Shown here in pieces: positions 46,515 through 63,158 of a stretch of 64,000 bases of DNA (positions are counted from its first letter, which is position 1; every line of letters starts with the position of its first letter). The translations under genes and the position numbers were made by a program. A model generated the notes under the pieces. The model worked only from the letters and a program-made list of their open reading frames with translations. It did no database searches and had not been told where the DNA came from. The stretch is from SAR86 cluster bacterium (GTDB taxonomy: Bacteria; Pseudomonadota; Gammaproteobacteria; Magnimaribacterales; Magnimaribacteraceae): positions 1-64,000 of the forward strand of contig JADHSF010000003.1 in assembly GCA_016777005.1 (NCBI GenBank). The letters are read 5' to 3'.

Positions 46515-47678
46515 ATGGACTTTAAACTTTCAGAACAACAACAAGAACTGCAACAAACTGCAAGAAATTTTGCTCAAAAGGAGATGACTGAAGTTGCTCA
46601 TTCCATAGAACAAACCAGTGAACCGCTCTCCAAAGAGTGGTTAAAAAAATATGCAGATATGGGGTTTTTAGGTATAAATGTTTCAGAGAACTACGGGGGA
46701 TTGGGTTTATCCAATCTTGATGCTCTTTTGGTCATGGAAGAATTTGCTAAGATATCATCTGCAGTTGCCTTTCCTATATTTGAGAGTTGTGTTGGTCCAG
46801 TAAAGGCCATAGAACATTTTGCTTCAGAAGAATTAAAAAATAAGATAATTCCTGAAGTGTGCAAAGGAAATATTGTTGTGGCTGTATCTATGTCTGAACC
46901 CAATGCTGGATCCGCACTTACTGATCTGACAACCAAAGCGGAGATTAACGGCAATAAGATAATACTTAACGGAACAAAAAGATGGTGTTCAGGGGGAGGT
47001 CACTCTGAAGGTTATGTTGTTTATTGCAGAATGTCAGACGAACCTGGAGCAAATGGTATAGGTGCTGTTTATGTCGAAAAAGATACAAAAGGATTAAGCT
47101 TCGGTCAACAAGAAAGCTTGATGGGATGGAATGGTATTCCTTCAGCTGATATTTACTTTGATAATGTTGAGTTGCCAATAGAAAATATAATTGTTGAAGC
47201 AAACGGAGGCTTCAAAAAATTAATGGAAGCTTTCGATTTAGAAAGATGTGGGAATGCTACCATGTGCTTAGGTCAAGCCTCTGGTGCACTAGAAAGTGCA
47301 ATTGAATATGTACAAGAAAGAGAACAATTTGGTAAACAAATTGTAGAATTCCAAGCTGTTCAAATGAAATTAGCGGAAATGGCTATGAAAGTTGAAGCTT
47401 CAAGGCTGCTTATACAGAGAGCTGCTCATAATGCCCAAGAAGGCTTTCCAAGTATATTTGAGTCAAGTGTTGGAAAATGCTTTTCTAATGAAACAGCAAG
47501 AGAAGTAGTCGCATCTGCAATGCAACTTATGGGTGGATACGGATTTAATAAAGAATACACTATGGAAAGAAAATACAGAGATGTATGGGGCTGGGGTATT
47601 GCAGGAGGAACCATAGATATCCAAAAAATTAACATCACATCAGCTATGGTAGGAAAACGATTTAATCAAAGAAAATAG
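46515..47678 (+). CDS. Acyl-CoA dehydrogenase
   Basis: FAD enzyme that introduces the alpha-beta double bond in acyl-CoA. It shows the three-domain layout: an N-terminal helical domain, a middle FAD domain with VAVSMSEPNAGSALTDL and RWCSGGGHSEGY, and a C-terminal domain with REQFGKQIVEFQAVQMKLAEM and QLMGGYGFNKEYTMERKYRD. The length of 387 aa is normal. It pairs with the CoA-transferase upstream. The substrate chain is unknown. Confidence 0.92.
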   Translation: MDFKLSEQQQELQQTARNFAQKEMTEVAHSIEQTSEPLSKEWLKKYADMGFLGINVSENYGGLGLSNLDALLVMEEFAKISSAVAFPIFESCVGPVKAIEHFASEELKNKIIPEVCKGNIVVAVSMSEPNAGSALTDLTTKAEINGNKIILNGTKRWCSGGGHSEGYVVYCRMSDEPGANGIGAVYVEKDTKGLSFGQQESLMGWNGIPSADIYFDNVELPIENIIVEANGGFKKLMEAFDLERCGNATMCLGQASGALESAIEYVQEREQFGKQIVEFQAVQMKLAEMAMKVEASRLLIQRAAHNAQEGFPSIFESSVGKCFSNETAREVVASAMQLMGGYGFNKEYTMERKYRDVWGWGIAGGTIDIQKINITSAMVGKRFNQRK

Positions 47679-55079: not shown

Positions 55080-56129
55080 ATGAAGACATATTCCTTATTA
55101 ACCCTTTTGACTTTAATATTTGGTTGCAGTGAAATAGAGACAAATGTGGAAATAGAAATAATTCGCATTATTGATAAACCAATCATTCCTCCTCTTCTTA
55201 CAGAAGAGATTGGAGATAATGTACAAGGTCCATCTTTAATCAAAGCTCCTACGTGGTTAAAAAACAGCCTGGGAAAGTATTATTTATACTTTGCGGACCA
55301 TAAAGGTGACAGAATTAAATTAGCTTATTCTGATAGTTTAATTGGACCATGGACAGTACATTTTGGAGGGACACTAAATCTTCAGGATTCATATTTTCTT
55401 AAAGAGACGCCTGATATTCCTGTAGATTTTGATATTGAATCTCTTGAATCAAGGGAAGTACATCCAGACCTTATAAATCATATACCTAAAAAAATTGATG
55501 ATCTCACCATTCCACACATTGCTTCTCCAGATGCTCACGTTGATGATTCTAATGAAAGAATAATTATGTATTATCATGGTTTAGATGAATTTGGGATTCA
55601 AAGAACCAGGGTAGCAACATCTAAAGATGGAATTCATTTTACTGCTAGAAAAAAAATTGTAGGTTGGCCTTATTTTAGAAAATTTACTTATAAGAATAAT
55701 AATTACGCACTTTCAATGCCTGGAGTTATCTATAAGAATATTGGCGATATAGAAGATTTCACGATTGTTAATCAAGTTATGGAAGAAAATACCAGACATT
55801 CAGCTGTGTTAGTTAAAGGTGATAAATTATTAATTTTCTATACCAGAAAAGGAGATTCACCAGAAAGAATATTATTGACTACTTTAGATCTCACTAAGCC
55901 CTCTCCTTTATGGAAGGTATCTAAACCAATTGAAGTTTTGAAACCCGAAAAGGAATGGGAAGGAGCTTCATTGCCCCTTTATAAATCCGTACAAAGTGCA
56001 ATTAACGTGCCAGTCAATCAATTAAGAGATCCGGCAATCTATTCTGAGAATGGAAAAAATTACCTGCTTTACTCAATTCGCGGTGAAAACGGTATTGGTA
56101 TAGTAGAATTTTCTATAAAAAAATTATAA
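55080..56129 (+). CDS. Lipoprotein with five-bladed beta-propeller (GH43/GH32-like)
   Basis: A 349-aa exported lipoprotein: signal peptide to lipobox IFGC with Cys16, then repeated propeller-like blocks such as YYLYFADHKGDRIKLAYSDS, IIMYYHGLDEFGIQRTRVATS, LLIFYTRKGDSPERILL and LRDPAIYSENGKNYLLYS. These resemble the five-bladed folds of glycoside hydrolase families 43, 32 and 117. Acidic candidates occur in the blades (for example RDPAIY), but no catalytic triad can be assigned. It might hydrolyse or bind marine polysaccharide at the outer membrane. The 3' end is followed by a phased repeat. Confidence 0.72.
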   Translation: MKTYSLLTLLTLIFGCSEIETNVEIEIIRIIDKPIIPPLLTEEIGDNVQGPSLIKAPTWLKNSLGKYYLYFADHKGDRIKLAYSDSLIGPWTVHFGGTLNLQDSYFLKETPDIPVDFDIESLESREVHPDLINHIPKKIDDLTIPHIASPDAHVDDSNERIIMYYHGLDEFGIQRTRVATSKDGIHFTARKKIVGWPYFRKFTYKNNNYALSMPGVIYKNIGDIEDFTIVNQVMEENTRHSAVLVKGDKLLIFYTRKGDSPERILLTTLDLTKPSPLWKVSKPIEVLKPEKEWEGASLPLYKSVQSAINVPVNQLRDPAIYSENGKNYLLYSIRGENGIGIVEFSIKKL

Positions 56130-56234: not shown

Positions 56235-56354
56235 ATGAAAAAAATAGAAAGAACAGCCAAGAAAGTAACAGAAGTAATACTACCTACTTTATATCTAGCA
56301 CCTATGGTTATAGGAGCATACGGCTTTATATCTTTAGTTCAATGGACCAGTTAA
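56235..56354 (+). CDS. Possible 39-residue single-pass membrane protein
   Basis: ATG to TAA encodes 39 residues: a basic start (MKKIERTAKKV) and one hydrophobic helix (about 14-36). It lies in an otherwise empty 221-bp gap downstream of the phased repeats. Its TAA shares TTAA with the facing gene's stop, the same junction type seen at other real convergent pairs here, which supports it. There is no clear ribosome-binding site. The function is unknown. Confidence 0.45.
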   Translation: MKKIERTAKKVTEVILPTLYLAPMVIGAYGFISLVQWTS

Positions 56355-56797
56355 CTCTCGGACTGTTGTAAAAGGCCTACCAAATCGCTCACCTTCCTTC
56401 TTCCGTGCATAGCTCTCATAAGCGTGTAAGACGCTTTAAGCCCCTCGGTATCTCCATTTCCTTCTAGAACTATCATTTGTCTATCCAATAGTCCTCTTAG
56501 AATCTGGTTATCAGTATCCATAAGACTAATATCTTGTATTTCACTAGTTACTTCGTAACCATATTCACTGATGTCATCCTCATCTAGATTAGTAAATTTT
56601 AAAAGCCATTCTAGGATATCTGCATTTTCTTGGTTTAAAGATGAACTTGAGTCATTAAACTTCATCGCGGAAATCAAAATGATAGCCCCCCAAGAACTTA
56701 ATCTTGATTTTTCATATTCATCATCTATGAGAGGGCTAAATCTATTAATGATCTCTTGTGCGGCGTTTAGAAGTGCTATATTGATATCTGGTTTCAT
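56351..56797 (-). CDS. Small helical protein coupled to phosphotransferase (LvaB/DUF6285-like?)
   Basis: A 148-residue, acidic, apparently all-helical cytoplasmic protein starting MKPDINIALLNAAQEIINRF. No enzyme motif is visible. Its ATG overlaps the stop of the phosphotransferase gene by 4 bp, so the two are produced together. In Pseudomonas the levulinate operon encodes kinase LvaA and a small partner, LvaB, needed for its activity; this gene holds the same position. Family membership is inferred from context and size, not from a recognised motif. Confidence 0.55.
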   Translation of the reverse strand: MKPDINIALLNAAQEIINRFSPLIDDEYEKSRLSSWGAIILISAMKFNDSSSSLNQENADILEWLLKFTNLDEDDISEYGYEVTSEIQDISLMDTDNQILRGLLDRQMIVLEGNGDTEGLKASYTLMRAMHGRRKVSDLVGLLQQSES

Positions 56798-57798
56798 AAC
56801 CTATCCTCCAAAAAATCTAAAATCACTTCAAGATGAATATCACCTGGTATCCATGCAGAAAATAAGTTTATAGGATCTATATTTTTACCAGATTTGAACT
56901 CATTCCCAGCTGAAATCCAAATAGCCATACCTTTTATCGCTGCAAAAAGCTCCCACCATTCAAGATCTTTACGGTCTAGATTGATATTACTTGAATTTTG
57001 CCATATCTCTATAGCCTGTTCTTTTTCTATTAGATATGCAGGGCGCTCTTTATCTTGCCAACTCCATATTGGTGAAAGTGCCCAAGCTAAATCTTCTAAA
57101 GGATTGCCTAAATGAGCCATCTCCCAATCAAGAATCCCTGTAATTTGATTTTCTAGATAGAGAAAATTTCCACTTCTATAATCTCCATGAACCATCGTAA
57201 TTCTTTCAGGTTCCTTCGGAGGATTCTTATATAGACTTCTAATTCCGGCTTCTAATATGGGCTCTACACCTATAGAATCTTCATGTACCACCTTAGCCCA
57301 TTTATCAAGTTCATTTTTCCAACAGGGTTCTTTTAGTTCACTTAGAAAGCTTTTAAAAATATCTTCTTGAATTTCTTTTTTTGCTATTTCTCCAAGAATA
57401 GACCAAAACTGTTCACCTAGCTCGACTTCATGAGGTGAATAAACATTTGGTGTGAAGGGACTTGCAGCTGCGCCTTGTAACTCTTTCATCAACATAAATG
57501 GCGCACCTAAGATATCACTATCCTCAGACATATCTAACAGGACCGGAACTGGAACACTACTATCTTGGTAAGCAGAATATGCTAAATATTCAGTTTTTTG
57601 ATCAGTTTCTATTAAGGAGCTATCTTGCGTAACTCTTAGGATTAATCGCTCAATCTTATTTACATCATGACCAACTTCTATTTTATAAGTTTCTCTACTT
57701 GCTCCTCCAAATATCCTTTCAAAGCTAAGTAATATGCATTCTTTCTCAATAAGTTTTGAGTAGTAGCTTAAGAATAAAGAAGAAAGTTCCTCCGGCAT
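56794..57798 (-). CDS. APH-family phosphotransferase (ACAD10/11- or LvaA-like kinase)
   Basis: A 334-aa kinase of the aminoglycoside-phosphotransferase fold. The nucleotide loop region is FGGASRETYKIE (30-41), the catalytic loop HGDYRSGNFL (204-213, with D206 and N211) and the Mg-binding DWE at 224-226 in GILDWEMAHLGNPLEDLAW. This subtype is the one fused to acyl-CoA dehydrogenase in ACAD10/11 or acting as LvaA, which phosphorylates hydroxyacyl-CoA, and is unlike antibiotic-resistance APHs. It lies in an operon behind a P450, which could supply the hydroxyl. Confidence 0.83.
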   Translation of the reverse strand: MPEELSSLFLSYYSKLIEKECILLSFERIFGGASRETYKIEVGHDVNKIERLILRVTQDSSLIETDQKTEYLAYSAYQDSSVPVPVLLDMSEDSDILGAPFMLMKELQGAAASPFTPNVYSPHEVELGEQFWSILGEIAKKEIQEDIFKSFLSELKEPCWKNELDKWAKVVHEDSIGVEPILEAGIRSLYKNPPKEPERITMVHGDYRSGNFLYLENQITGILDWEMAHLGNPLEDLAWALSPIWSWQDKERPAYLIEKEQAIEIWQNSSNINLDRKDLEWWELFAAIKGMAIWISAGNEFKSGKNIDPINLFSAWIPGDIHLEVILDFLEDRL

Positions 57799-57802
57799 GA
57801 CT

Positions 57803-58891
57803 TTATACGTCTAATAAACCTTCAAAACCACTTGGAGAATGAGGACCGAACATGAGTTGTTCTAGCACTCCAATACCTTTATGAGATATATCTCCATCAA
57901 CCATCTCGAAATCGCATATAGCCTGTATATGAAGAAAAGGAGGATCATGAGGATCATCACCAAGATCATAAGAATCGTAATGAGATTGGTTTTCTCCATG
58001 AAACATTCCATGTCCCCATTCTGGGTGCATATACCCTAAGCCACACATATAAATATGGTATTTTGGAGTTAAAGACCATGAAACCATAATCCCATCTTCT
58101 TTTTCAGCAGTAAAATTAGCTTTAGTAATTCTTCTAGATCCTGATTTATACTCAATTATCTTGTCCAAATTATATAACTTATTACTAGATTCTTTATTTT
58201 GTTGCACACAATGGCTATTTGTTGCCCTTCCCATCTCATCATCGACAAAATAAAGATGCGAAGAGTGATTAGAAAAATTCGCTGGAGCCCATAACCAATA
58301 GAATTGTGGTAATTTCATAGATGGCATCATTTGGGTATCTGCCGAACCTACTGGCCTGATGCCCCACGATCTGTCTCGGGTTCCTAAGAAATCTTCCTTC
58401 GAAATGATAATCTCTTTTCCTTTAAACCTTATTGCTCCATTCCAAGAGCCATGTTGAGTCATTCTAGTAGAGTCCATTGACACTCTAGGTCCGTTCTTAA
58501 TTATCATCCTTGGCTCTTCCATAGGCTCGAACCTTCCCATGAAAGAAATATCAGCAGAAATTTCTTTTTCTTTGTCTTCTAGTAAAATCTTTAATTCTTT
58601 GAGAGGTTCAATAATTTCAATTCTAAAATTCCCTACTTGCATATCAAGTCTTTCTTGATTGAGTAAATCAGAATATCGAAAGTTATGCTGAATCCCATCC
58701 AAAACCAAAACAAAACTAGCGTCTTTTACATTTAGATTTGGGTAAACGCAAAATGCCGCTCCAAAGAAAATACTTCCATCCTCGCTATAACCATTAAAAA
58801 AATATCTATCATAAAAATTTCTTTCTGTTCCTACCTCTGCAATCGGAGAAGGGAGTTGGTGGATTGGAAAATCGTCGGCTTTAGAAATCAT
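57803..58891 (-). CDS. CrtC/AttH lipocalin-like protein of unknown function (DUF7064/7065-type?)
   Basis: A 362-aa protein with beta-rich repeats and no signal peptide. SDEV-like acidic and aromatic blocks, RDRSWGIRPVG (about 171-181) and FYWLWAPANFSNHSSHLYF recall two-domain lipocalin-like proteins of the CrtC (carotenoid hydratase) and tocopherol-cyclase type that occur beside lipid- and steroid-catabolic genes in actinobacteria and gammaproteobacteria. No catalytic residue can be assigned. It is 2 bp after the P450 gene and 4 bp before the kinase gene, so it probably handles the same hydrophobic substrate. Confidence 0.6.
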   Translation of the reverse strand: MISKADDFPIHQLPSPIAEVGTERNFYDRYFFNGYSEDGSIFFGAAFCVYPNLNVKDASFVLVLDGIQHNFRYSDLLNQERLDMQVGNFRIEIIEPLKELKILLEDKEKEISADISFMGRFEPMEEPRMIIKNGPRVSMDSTRMTQHGSWNGAIRFKGKEIIISKEDFLGTRDRSWGIRPVGSADTQMMPSMKLPQFYWLWAPANFSNHSSHLYFVDDEMGRATNSHCVQQNKESSNKLYNLDKIIEYKSGSRRITKANFTAEKEDGIMVSWSLTPKYHIYMCGLGYMHPEWGHGMFHGENQSHYDSYDLGDDPHDPPFLHIQAICDFEMVDGDISHKGIGVLEQLMFGPHSPSGFEGLLDV

Positions 58892-58893
58892 AA

Positions 58894-60132
58894 TTATAAG
58901 CTTACCTTTAAATCTGAAATCCCTGCCAGAAAGTTTGAAGGAATCCTGACTGGTTGAGAAGTTGTATGAATATTTGGAAAACGAGCTAATAGTTCTTCAA
59001 ATAATATTCTTATTTGCATATGACCTAATCTATTACCCAAACATAAATGTTCACCGGCACCAAAAGCAAGATGTTTCTTTGCATTTTCTCTATCAACCTT
59101 AAAAAGATCACCGTCAGTAAAGATATCTTCATCTCTGTTTGCTGACCCGTACCACATGACTACCTTATCTCCTTTTTTTATGTCTTGTCCTCTAATATTA
59201 GTATCTTTCATAGCAGTTCTTCTAAAGTAAATTACTGAGGTAACCCATCTCAGCATTTCATCAGTTGCATTTGATACTAAAGAAGGATCTTTCAAAAGTT
59301 TATTTCTTTCTTCAGGATTTTCTGTAAGTGCCATAATCCCACCCGTGAGTGTGTTGCGTGTAGTTTCGTTTCCAGCTATAACCATTAATAGAAAAAAACC
59401 ATCCAACAGCTCAGGTGGTAACTCTCCACCTTCAATTTTTGTATTGGCGACTACGCTCATTAAGTCATCAGTTGGATTTTTTCTTCTTTCTTCAATCATA
59501 TCTCTTCCCATCTTGAAGAGTTCCATATAATTGACCCAAATTTGAAAGGCATTCTCAGGATCTTGCTGGATAGAGGCATCTGTGAGGTTGTTTACCAAAT
59601 CACGTATTTTTGGTCTATCAGATTCAGGAATACCCATCATTTCACAAAGTACCCACAATGGAAGTTGCTCTGATATTTCTGTGACAAAGTTAAAATCGCT
59701 TTTACCCTCTACATTTTCAAGAAGTTCTCTGATTTTAAGTCGCATGTCACTTTCAAGATTTCGTATAGCTTTGGGCGTAAAACTAGGGGCAACCATTTTT
59801 CTATAAATCTGATGATCGGGTGGATCCATGCCTATCATATTTCCAATTATCGCAGCAACAGCTGAGGGATCTACTACTGCCGGATCACCCATACTCATTA
59901 AGTGACCTCCAGCAGCTGAAGAGAAGGTAAGAGGATCTTTGGATACTCTCACTATATCTTCATGCTTTGTCAGTGCCCAGAATCCAGGCTCGAAATCTAG
60001 ACTTTCTTCATGCCAGTATATTGGTGCTTCTTGGCGTAATCTTTTAAATAAATCAAAGGGCTGACCATCTATGAAACTTTCCCACTTATCCAGTTCACAT
60101 ATCTGACCAATATCATAAATGGGCTTTGGCAT
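58894..60132 (-). CDS. Cytochrome P450
   Basis: A soluble 412-aa monooxygenase. The heme loop is FGAGEHLCLG with Cys364, the I-helix oxygen motif AGNETTR (253-259) and the K-helix ExxR is EMLR (292-295). The B-C region with IGMDPPDHQIYRKMVAPSF resembles bacterial CYPs of the sterol or alkane-hydroxylating CYP125/142/153 type, but the subfamily needs a comparison. No ferredoxin or reductase gene is adjacent. It is the second gene of a five-gene operon, 2 bp after the peroxiredoxin. Confidence 0.93.
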   Translation of the reverse strand: MPKPIYDIGQICELDKWESFIDGQPFDLFKRLRQEAPIYWHEESLDFEPGFWALTKHEDIVRVSKDPLTFSSAAGGHLMSMGDPAVVDPSAVAAIIGNMIGMDPPDHQIYRKMVAPSFTPKAIRNLESDMRLKIRELLENVEGKSDFNFVTEISEQLPLWVLCEMMGIPESDRPKIRDLVNNLTDASIQQDPENAFQIWVNYMELFKMGRDMIEERRKNPTDDLMSVVANTKIEGGELPPELLDGFFLLMVIAGNETTRNTLTGGIMALTENPEERNKLLKDPSLVSNATDEMLRWVTSVIYFRRTAMKDTNIRGQDIKKGDKVVMWYGSANRDEDIFTDGDLFKVDRENAKKHLAFGAGEHLCLGNRLGHMQIRILFEELLARFPNIHTTSQPVRIPSNFLAGISDLKVSL

Positions 60133-60134
60133 TT

Positions 60135-60617
60135 TTATAGCTGTTCGAGCACTGTTTCAGCAGAACTGATGTCTAGGCCTGGACCTGACTCGACGTTAAG
60201 CACAGATACAACTCCGTCATCAATAATCATTGCATATCTTTGTGACCTGGTTCCTAAACCAAAACCTCTACCATCCATCTCCAGCCCAATCGCAGCCGTG
60301 AATTCACCATTGCCATCCGATAGCATGAGAACATCTTCTCCAACATTCCTATCATCACCCCAAGCTTTCATAACGAATGGATCGTTTACCGAAACGCAAG
60401 CTACGACATCAACACCTTTAGCTTTGAGCTCTTTATTTTTTTCGATAAAACCCGGTAAGTGTTGAGCGCTGCATGTTGGAGTGAACGCTCCAGGGACAGC
60501 GAATAAAACCAGCTTTTTTCCTGCCGATAACTCAGTCATCGAGACTGGTTTTGGGCCTTCAGCAGTCATTGTTGTTAGATTAGTTGCAGGTAAGGTATCA
60601 CCAACTTGTATAGTCAT
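60135..60617 (-). CDS. Peroxiredoxin, Prx5 type
   Basis: Thiol peroxidase of the Prx5 family. The peroxidatic Cys lies in PGAFTPTCSAQHLPGF, and the GLGTRSQRYAMIIDDGVV block is typical. The frame is open from a TTG at 60629, but the ATG at 60617 has GGAG upstream and gives the standard MTIQVGDTLPA start, 160 aa. As first gene of the P450 operon it may clear peroxides from uncoupled P450 turnover (inference). Confidence 0.92.
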   Translation of the reverse strand: MTIQVGDTLPATNLTTMTAEGPKPVSMTELSAGKKLVLFAVPGAFTPTCSAQHLPGFIEKNKELKAKGVDVVACVSVNDPFVMKAWGDDRNVGEDVLMLSDGNGEFTAAIGLEMDGRGFGLGTRSQRYAMIIDDGVVSVLNVESGPGLDISSAETVLEQL

Positions 60618-60662
60618 TTGTTTCTCCAAAATAAAATTACCATTATAGGCTAAGAATTAATT

Positions 60663-62072: not shown

Positions 62073-63158
62073 ATGAATAAAATAAAGGTCTTAACTTTTT
62101 TAACTATTTCACTTTTGAGCTTCTTATCTTTTTCTTACGAAGTAAAAGAAGGTGTGCTTAGAACTCCAGATGATAGGTTTGAAAATCTTGAAAATTATCC
62201 TTTTAAGCCTAACTATATGATGATCGATGGTCTTAGAATCCATTATCTTGATGAAGGACCTAATGATGCTGACCCGATAATTCTTTTCCATGGAGAGCCG
62301 ACATGGAGTTATCTATTTAGAAAAATGATTCCTGTTCTTACTGAAGCAGGCTATAGGGTTGTAGTACCTGACATGGTTGGCTTTGGTAAGTCTGACAAAT
62401 TTGAATCTAAGTATGACTATAGCTATCAACATCATATCGAAGTAATGAAGGAGCTTATCAAGAGATTAGACCTCAAAAATGCTACTCATTTTGGTCAGGA
62501 TTGGGGAGGTCTTGTTGGGTTGAGGGTTGTTGCCGAAATGCCAAATAGATTTTCTCAAGTTGTGGTCTCAAATACTGGTATGGTATCAAGAGAAGGAATA
62601 AGCGCCTGGTTTATGCAACGCCTAGTTGAGTTAACAGTATGGTGGAATGGACCCATTACTTATAAAGAACTTATATTAGCTGCACAAGAATCCCTGAATA
62701 CCGATAGCCCTACTCCTAGTTCGGCAACTTCAATGTTCTCTAAATGGATGGCATATTCTTACTATTCTGAAGATATGGATATAGTAGGAATAATTGAAAA
62801 CTTTGGTCAATTAAATCTTTCAGAAGAAGAAAAGAGAGCTTACGAAGCACCCTATCCTTCTGGGAAATATAAAGCTGGAGCTCATGTCTGGCCTTACTTA
62901 ATTCCAACTCAACTGCAAGAAAATGAAAAATACTGGAAAGAGGTTTATGAGGAATGGGATAAGCCTTTTCTTGTTGCTTTTGGAAGTGAAGAAAGAATAA
63001 CTATTAGAATGAAAGACGATTTTTTAAATCGCATCCCCAACCCAACAGTAATAACTTTAGATGGTGTAGGGCATTTTGTGCAAGAAGAGATGGGTCCAGA
63101 ATTAGCTCAAATCATAATTAACTTTATTGAAGGAAAAAAGGTTTCAGATTTAATCTAA
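62073..63158 (+). CDS. Exported haloalkane dehalogenase-like alpha/beta hydrolase
   Basis: Closest by eye to HLD-I enzymes such as DhlA: VLRTPDDRFENLENYPFKPNY, oxyanion motif HGEPTWSYLFRKMIP (73-87), nucleophile D143 with halide-binding W144 in GQDWGG, a second halide Trp candidate W225, and catalytic H334 in GVGHFVQEE. The catalytic-acid position of HLD-I (Asp in GMKD of DhlA) is E307 here, in GSEERI. Residues 1-21 form a signal peptide, unusual for this mostly cytoplasmic family. The length is 361 aa. It follows tolC by 20 bp. Confidence 0.84.
   Translation: MNKIKVLTFLTISLLSFLSFSYEVKEGVLRTPDDRFENLENYPFKPNYMMIDGLRIHYLDEGPNDADPIILFHGEPTWSYLFRKMIPVLTEAGYRVVVPDMVGFGKSDKFESKYDYSYQHHIEVMKELIKRLDLKNATHFGQDWGGLVGLRVVAEMPNRFSQVVVSNTGMVSREGISAWFMQRLVELTVWWNGPITYKELILAAQESLNTDSPTPSSATSMFSKWMAYSYYSEDMDIVGIIENFGQLNLSEEEKRAYEAPYPSGKYKAGAHVWPYLIPTQLQENEKYWKEVYEEWDKPFLVAFGSEERITIRMKDDFLNRIPNPTVITLDGVGHFVQEEMGPELAQIIINFIEGKKVSDLI

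Follow-up and report, generated by a model that had tools for sequence, protein, structure and literature searches.

A conserved SAR86 operon with a P450, a 25-phosphosteroid lyase homologue and a kinase as a candidate ATP-dependent dehydration module

Five minus-strand ORFs, at 56351-60629 in the ORF list of the 64-kb window (the whole stretch of DNA that was analysed), form an operon that is read here, with somewhat better than even confidence, as a P450-fed, ATP-dependent dehydration module. Gene 3 of this operon, treated in an earlier sequence-only reading as an accessory CrtC-like/lipocalin gene, is judged by homology to encode the key enzyme, a putative phosphate-eliminating lyase. Gene content, gene order, homology, conserved motifs and the fusions of kinase with small protein in relatives are direct observations and are presented below, followed by the mechanism proposed from them.

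Results

Organization and conservation of the operon

Successive gaps between the first four genes (Table 1) measure 2, 2 and 4 bp, and the last two genes overlap by 4 bp. This arrangement agrees with the sequence-only reading except for the start of the peroxiredoxin gene, whose ORF begins with TTG at 60629, the ATG at 60617 being internal to it. Genes 1, 2 and 4 were assigned by Pfam search to Redoxin, p450 and APH, respectively, and the same search gave no family for genes 3 (the lyase homologue) and 5 (the small protein). The motifs reported earlier as intact were confirmed for both the P450 (I-helix AGNETT, ExxR as EMLR, and the heme Cys loop FGAGEHLCLG), which belongs to the P450 family, and the kinase (HGDYRSGN...DWE).

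Table 1. Genes of the SAR86 operon in the window, listed in the direction of transcription
Gene	Product	Coordinates	Strand	Evidence
1	Peroxiredoxin (Redoxin/Prx5-like), first gene	60135..60629	-	Pfam Redoxin 3.3e-40
2	Cytochrome P450	58894..60132	-	Pfam p450 3e-28
3	25-Phosphosteroid-lyase homologue (NCBIfam Rv3169 family, CrtC/lipocalin-like)	57803..58891	-	9fzn/9g2i 4.9e-43
4	APH-superfamily small-molecule kinase, lyase-associated clade	56794..57798	-	Pfam APH 1.7e-27
5	All-helical 148-aa putative kinase partner, distant LvaB/DUF6285 superfamily	56351..56797	-	AlphaFold model, fusions in relatives, hhalign

The host genome comprises 1.2 Mb in 51 contigs, and its named relatives are SAR86 cluster bacteria. 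The order and strand of the five genes were kept, with small or negative gaps, in 27/27 loci of the same SAR86 family that were free of contig ends (three further loci were cut), and the five genes are therefore a real conserved operon and not a chance arrangement. Conservation of gene order in relatives, the lack of which would have counted against the sequence-only reading, is thus confirmed, and so is the earlier view of P450, kinase and small protein as a single conserved unit. The loci of this family are flanked by parE/parC on one side and by tolC on the other, and the small gene was detected in 32 of the 35 genomes of the family. The peroxiredoxin gene was found in all the uncut loci, with the FxPxC motif in each of the 27 SAR86 copies, and its product probably guards against peroxide from P450 uncoupling.

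Two neighbouring genes of the window were also recorded. A haloalkane dehalogenase-family hydrolase with a signal-peptide-like N-terminus (62073-63158; 324 bits, cut-off 265) is often operon-linked in relatives, and a GH43/GH130-like protein with a lipoprotein-like N-terminus (55080-56129), located between parE and the operon, is present in most, not all, relatives.

Gene 3 as a 25-phosphosteroid lyase homologue

The product of gene 3 is a member of the Rv3169 family (NCBIfam NF053593; 357 bits, cut-off 150) and matched the PDB entries 9fzn/9g2i and 9g4c, deposited as 25-phosphosteroid lyase (25-PSL), at an E-value of 4.9e-43, with 79 identical residues in 197 aligned ones (40%) over approximately the first 200 residues. 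An accessory role for this gene is not borne out by this match, and gene 3 is proposed as the phosphate-eliminating enzyme of the operon. The entry 9g4c carries Asn where 9fzn has the Asp of the GSRDRSWG motif, which lies within the aligned stretch, and Asp173 in GTRDRSWG of the window lyase aligns with this position; from this mutant deposit we infer that the Asp of the RDRSWG motif is an active-site residue. R172, D173, S175, W176, G177 and R179 were invariant across 14 diverse members of the lyase family. In the lyase tree, 25-PSL (a partial sequence, on a tree with long branches) grouped with the lyase of locus L102, outside the clade of the window lyase, and the substrate may therefore differ from that of 25-PSL. 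Elsewhere in the host genome, a weak lyase paralogue matching DUF7064/DUF7065 (L112:7374-8387, G000:C11) is located between QueG-like and luciferase-like genes.

The cytochrome P450

The nearest solved structures of the P450 by PDB search were CYP125MRCA, CYP126, CYP153 and CYP124 (325, 266, 255 and 245 bits, respectively), the first being an ancestral reconstruction, a type of sequence that tends to score high. Some enzymes of this group hydroxylate sterols or long alkyl chains. The site of attack in P450s near CYP125/124/153 is often a terminal carbon rather than a tertiary one, which counts against the tertiary hydroxylation proposed below. The P450 gene is directly upstream of the lyase gene in all 27 uncut SAR86 loci and is among the most conserved genes there. 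P450s near lyases elsewhere (L195, L197, L199 and L103) were of other subfamilies and only 26-36% identical to the operon P450, so the operon link of the P450 appears specific to this SAR86 family; regular P450-lyase adjacency seems, as far as seen, to be limited to it. The second P450 of the host genome (442 aa; L225, G000:C21:20-4851) is located near a Rieske oxygenase, a zinc peptidase and a photolyase-related gene, and this Rieske oxygenase gave weak scores against the named models.

The kinase and the acyl-CoA dehydrogenase route

The 18 kinases found together with a lyase and a small-protein relative, the operon kinase included, formed one clade (100/99), whereas the kinases preceding DUF6285 genes (LvaA-type) formed a separate one (96/96). 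Other, more distant kinases also adjoin lyases in some genomes. In the PDB, the operon kinase matched ACAD11, putative-ACAD kinase structures and 3ats, which we take to be Rv3168 of Mycobacterium tuberculosis; the match to 9fsg, by our guess the 25-HSK structure, was weak (25 bits).

In the sequence-only reading, an LvaA/LvaB-type kinase acted on hydroxyacyl-CoAs and an acyl-CoA dehydrogenase (ACAD), at 46515-47678 or another, stripped the phosphate. The APH superfamily in common, the matches to ACAD11 and putative-ACAD kinase structures and the distant DUF6285 kinship of the small protein agree with this route, which is nevertheless regarded as very unlikely on three grounds. The operon kinase is outside the LvaA-type clade, a phosphate lyase homologue is located between the P450 and the kinase, and ACAD, APH-type kinase and DUF6285 genes stand in tandem, with a 1-bp stop/start overlap, on another contig of this genome (G000:C8:599-3147, L113). 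The last set is the real LvaC/LvaA/LvaB-like set of the genome, and the ACAD at 46515 is only 25% identical to its ACAD. No ACAD partner (for the LvaC or ACAD10-11 step) was found within the five-gene operon. Since a homologue of a phosphate-removing lyase is in the operon itself, the ACAD at 46515 need not be invoked, and this homologue together with the set elsewhere speaks against it as the eliminating partner. Hydroxyacyl-CoA as the kinase substrate found no support in this analysis, and the operon kinase is proposed to act on tertiary alcohols.

The small protein and its relation to DUF6285

The AlphaFold model of the small protein was all helical with five helices (pLDDT 81). Foldseek gave no PDB fold match for this model, and no solved structure related to DUF6285 was found. 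An LvaB-like identity had been suggested for the small protein, with an HMM comparison against DUF6285 as the check. In this comparison the protein had no match in Pfam, PF19802 (DUF6285) included, and a SAR86-only profile had no similarity to DUF6285 (hhalign 0.2%). The link surfaced only once relatives from the named genomes had joined the profile: the SAR86 profile matched that of the relatives at 99.2% (hhalign), and the latter matched DUF6285 at 94.9% (hhalign; E 4.4e-8, 100 columns in order), the best E-value among 100 column-scrambled or reversed control profiles being 0.098. Because the link runs via intermediates, and single relatives reached 12 bits at most against the Pfam DUF6285 model, only superfamily rank is assigned, and the small protein is, by profile comparison, a distant DUF6285 superfamily relative and not a family member. 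The suggested LvaB likeness thus stands as a remote kinship through relatives and fails as a direct match.

DUF6285 is presumably the family of LvaB, as the sequence-only reading also had it. The gene order ACAD-kinase-DUF6285 and kinase-DUF6285 fusions accord with this; at L132:337-1797 and L133:1441-2802, an APH-type kinase is naturally fused to a DUF6285 domain at its C-terminus. LvaA pulled down LvaB in the work of Rand et al. (2017), as far as this is relayed in PMC6692424. In three Sphingomonas (L183, L186 and L187) the kinase carries a relative of the small protein at its C-terminal end, and these gene fusions suggest that the small protein is likely a kinase partner. In the predicted structure of a natural fusion of this kind, the pLDDT of the small domain was near 55-60, and the model is therefore uninformative on docking. 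At L102:7430-7918, a 162-aa gene overlaps the end of a lyase-adjacent kinase gene; it occupies the position of the small gene, with undetectable profile similarity.

Lyase-kinase-small protein trios in other bacteria

Scanning of the named genomes with the lyase profile gave 80 loci, and outside the SAR86 family the lyase, the kinase and a small-protein relative occurred together in 21/73 loci. The bearers of these trios were Sphingomonadaceae, Hyphomonadaceae, Caulobacterales, Rhodobiaceae, Pseudomaricurvus and Desulfobacteria. Among 199 genomes sampled from the family to which one fusion-bearing Sphingomonas belongs, 25 had a kinase of the trio type, in most cases followed by a small gene. 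Some trios adjoin CoA-transferase/ECH/thiolase-type or ACAD/P450 genes (as read from ORFs and labels).

Most trios, those of Desulfobacteria included, have no P450 nearby. This favours a reading in which kinase and lyase serve as a dehydration module of general use, acting on a lipid alcohol that is imported or produced elsewhere, and the P450 performs a separate step, e.g. terminal hydroxylation of the same lipid before or after; the terminal hydroxylases among the nearest P450 structures point the same way. With the P450 immediately upstream of the lyase in 27/27 loci, and among their most conserved genes, this reading is considered rather unlikely, and a P450 that feeds the kinase and lyase is preferred.

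A biosynthetic module, desaturating a cellular lipid (isoprenoid, carotenoid or secondary metabolite) and not a food molecule, would suit a conserved core gene set in streamlined genomes and a lyase of the CrtC-like fold family (the latter from the earlier reading and general knowledge). The neighbours of the alphaproteobacterial trios include beta-oxidation-type genes, however, and the sole characterised member is catabolic (PMC8449060), so that biosynthesis is given little credence.

Several further loci were recorded. Two were found in Desulfobacteria, L158 (lyase) and L162 (whole trio), and the lyase of L158 adjoins an aldehyde ferredoxin oxidoreductase, which fits oxygen-free use. At L141, L143 and L144, in other genomes labelled SAR86/OCS116, a closely related lyase occurs together with a different, divergent kinase without the HxDxRxxN motif, followed by a gene of 127-131 aa; L143 and L144 also carry a 155-aa gene.

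Discussion

Proposed mechanism and substrate

The hydroxylate-then-phosphorylate-then-eliminate chemistry of the sequence-only reading remains, in outline, the best reading, with the lyase homologue in place of an ACAD as the eliminating enzyme. The three enzymes would act in the order P450, kinase and lyase on one substrate, a sterol side chain or another isoprenoid lipid. The P450 would hydroxylate a hydrophobic substrate at an unactivated carbon, probably a tertiary one; the kinase, with the small LvaB-superfamily protein holding or stabilising it, would phosphorylate the new hydroxyl; and the 25-PSL-like lyase would eliminate the phosphate via the conserved Asp of GTRDRSWG, leaving an alkene. 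The net result would be that an inert alkyl chain is desaturated at the expense of O2 and ATP and thereby exposed to further oxidation.

The likeliest guess is a substrate whose tertiary carbon is of a sterol-like or isoprenoid type, because steroids are what the sole characterised lyase acts on and the operon P450 is near lipid hydroxylases. A firm sterol claim is weakened by the position of 25-PSL outside the window lyase clade and by a search of 37 genomes for HsaD, which marks steroid ring breakdown, in which no orthologue exceeded the cut-off. The wider proposal, that the trio is a widespread unnamed dehydration system of Proteobacteria and Desulfobacterota and that the SAR86 P450 feeds it for aerobic desaturation of sterol-like or isoprenoid lipids, is made tentatively and given slightly less than an even chance.

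SAR86 is one of the commonest bacterial groups of the ocean. If the proposal is true, the phosphorylate-then-eliminate chemistry of anaerobic cholesterol degradation reaches aerobic surface-ocean SAR86, with a P450 replacing the molybdenum hydroxylase. A testable function would also be provided for the 'Rv3169 family', for an unnamed family of small proteins and for a kinase clade annotated merely as aminoglycoside phosphotransferase-like. In a survey of 2016, steroid pathway genes were found in three SAR86 genomes, and no Cyp125/Cyp142 orthologues in Proteobacteria (PMC4810484); the SAR86 operon is a candidate for the side-chain entry step of steroid degradation.

Comparison with known systems

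CYP125 and CYP124, among the nearest solved structures of the operon P450 by PDB similarity rank, are lipid hydroxylases that act on terminal carbons. The adjacent locus numbers of Rv3168 (an APH-like kinase) and Rv3169 (the founder of the lyase family) in M. tuberculosis parallel the kinase and lyase of the operon. The LvaA/LvaB/LvaC system for levulinate and ACAD10/ACAD11 resemble the operon in an APH-type kinase with a small helical partner and in phosphate as the leaving group, whereas the SAR86 operon has another kinase clade, another eliminating enzyme and no CoA-thioester context.

In Sterolibacterium denitrificans, 25-HSK phosphorylates the tertiary C25-OH of steroids and a lyase yields the delta-24 alkene (PMC8449060, PMC11061730); in 2021 this lyase was still unidentified, with no candidate near the kinase gene (PMC8449060). 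The SAR86 operon resembles this 25-HSK/25-PSL cascade in its lyase, which is homologous to 25-PSL and has the conserved motif in common with it, in its APH-superfamily kinase and in the phosphorylate-then-eliminate logic, a likeness at the level of homology. In S. denitrificans the alcohol is made by a Mo hydroxylase without O2 and the kinase gene has no lyase candidate nearby, whereas in SAR86 the P450, the kinase, the lyase and the small partner are encoded in one operon.
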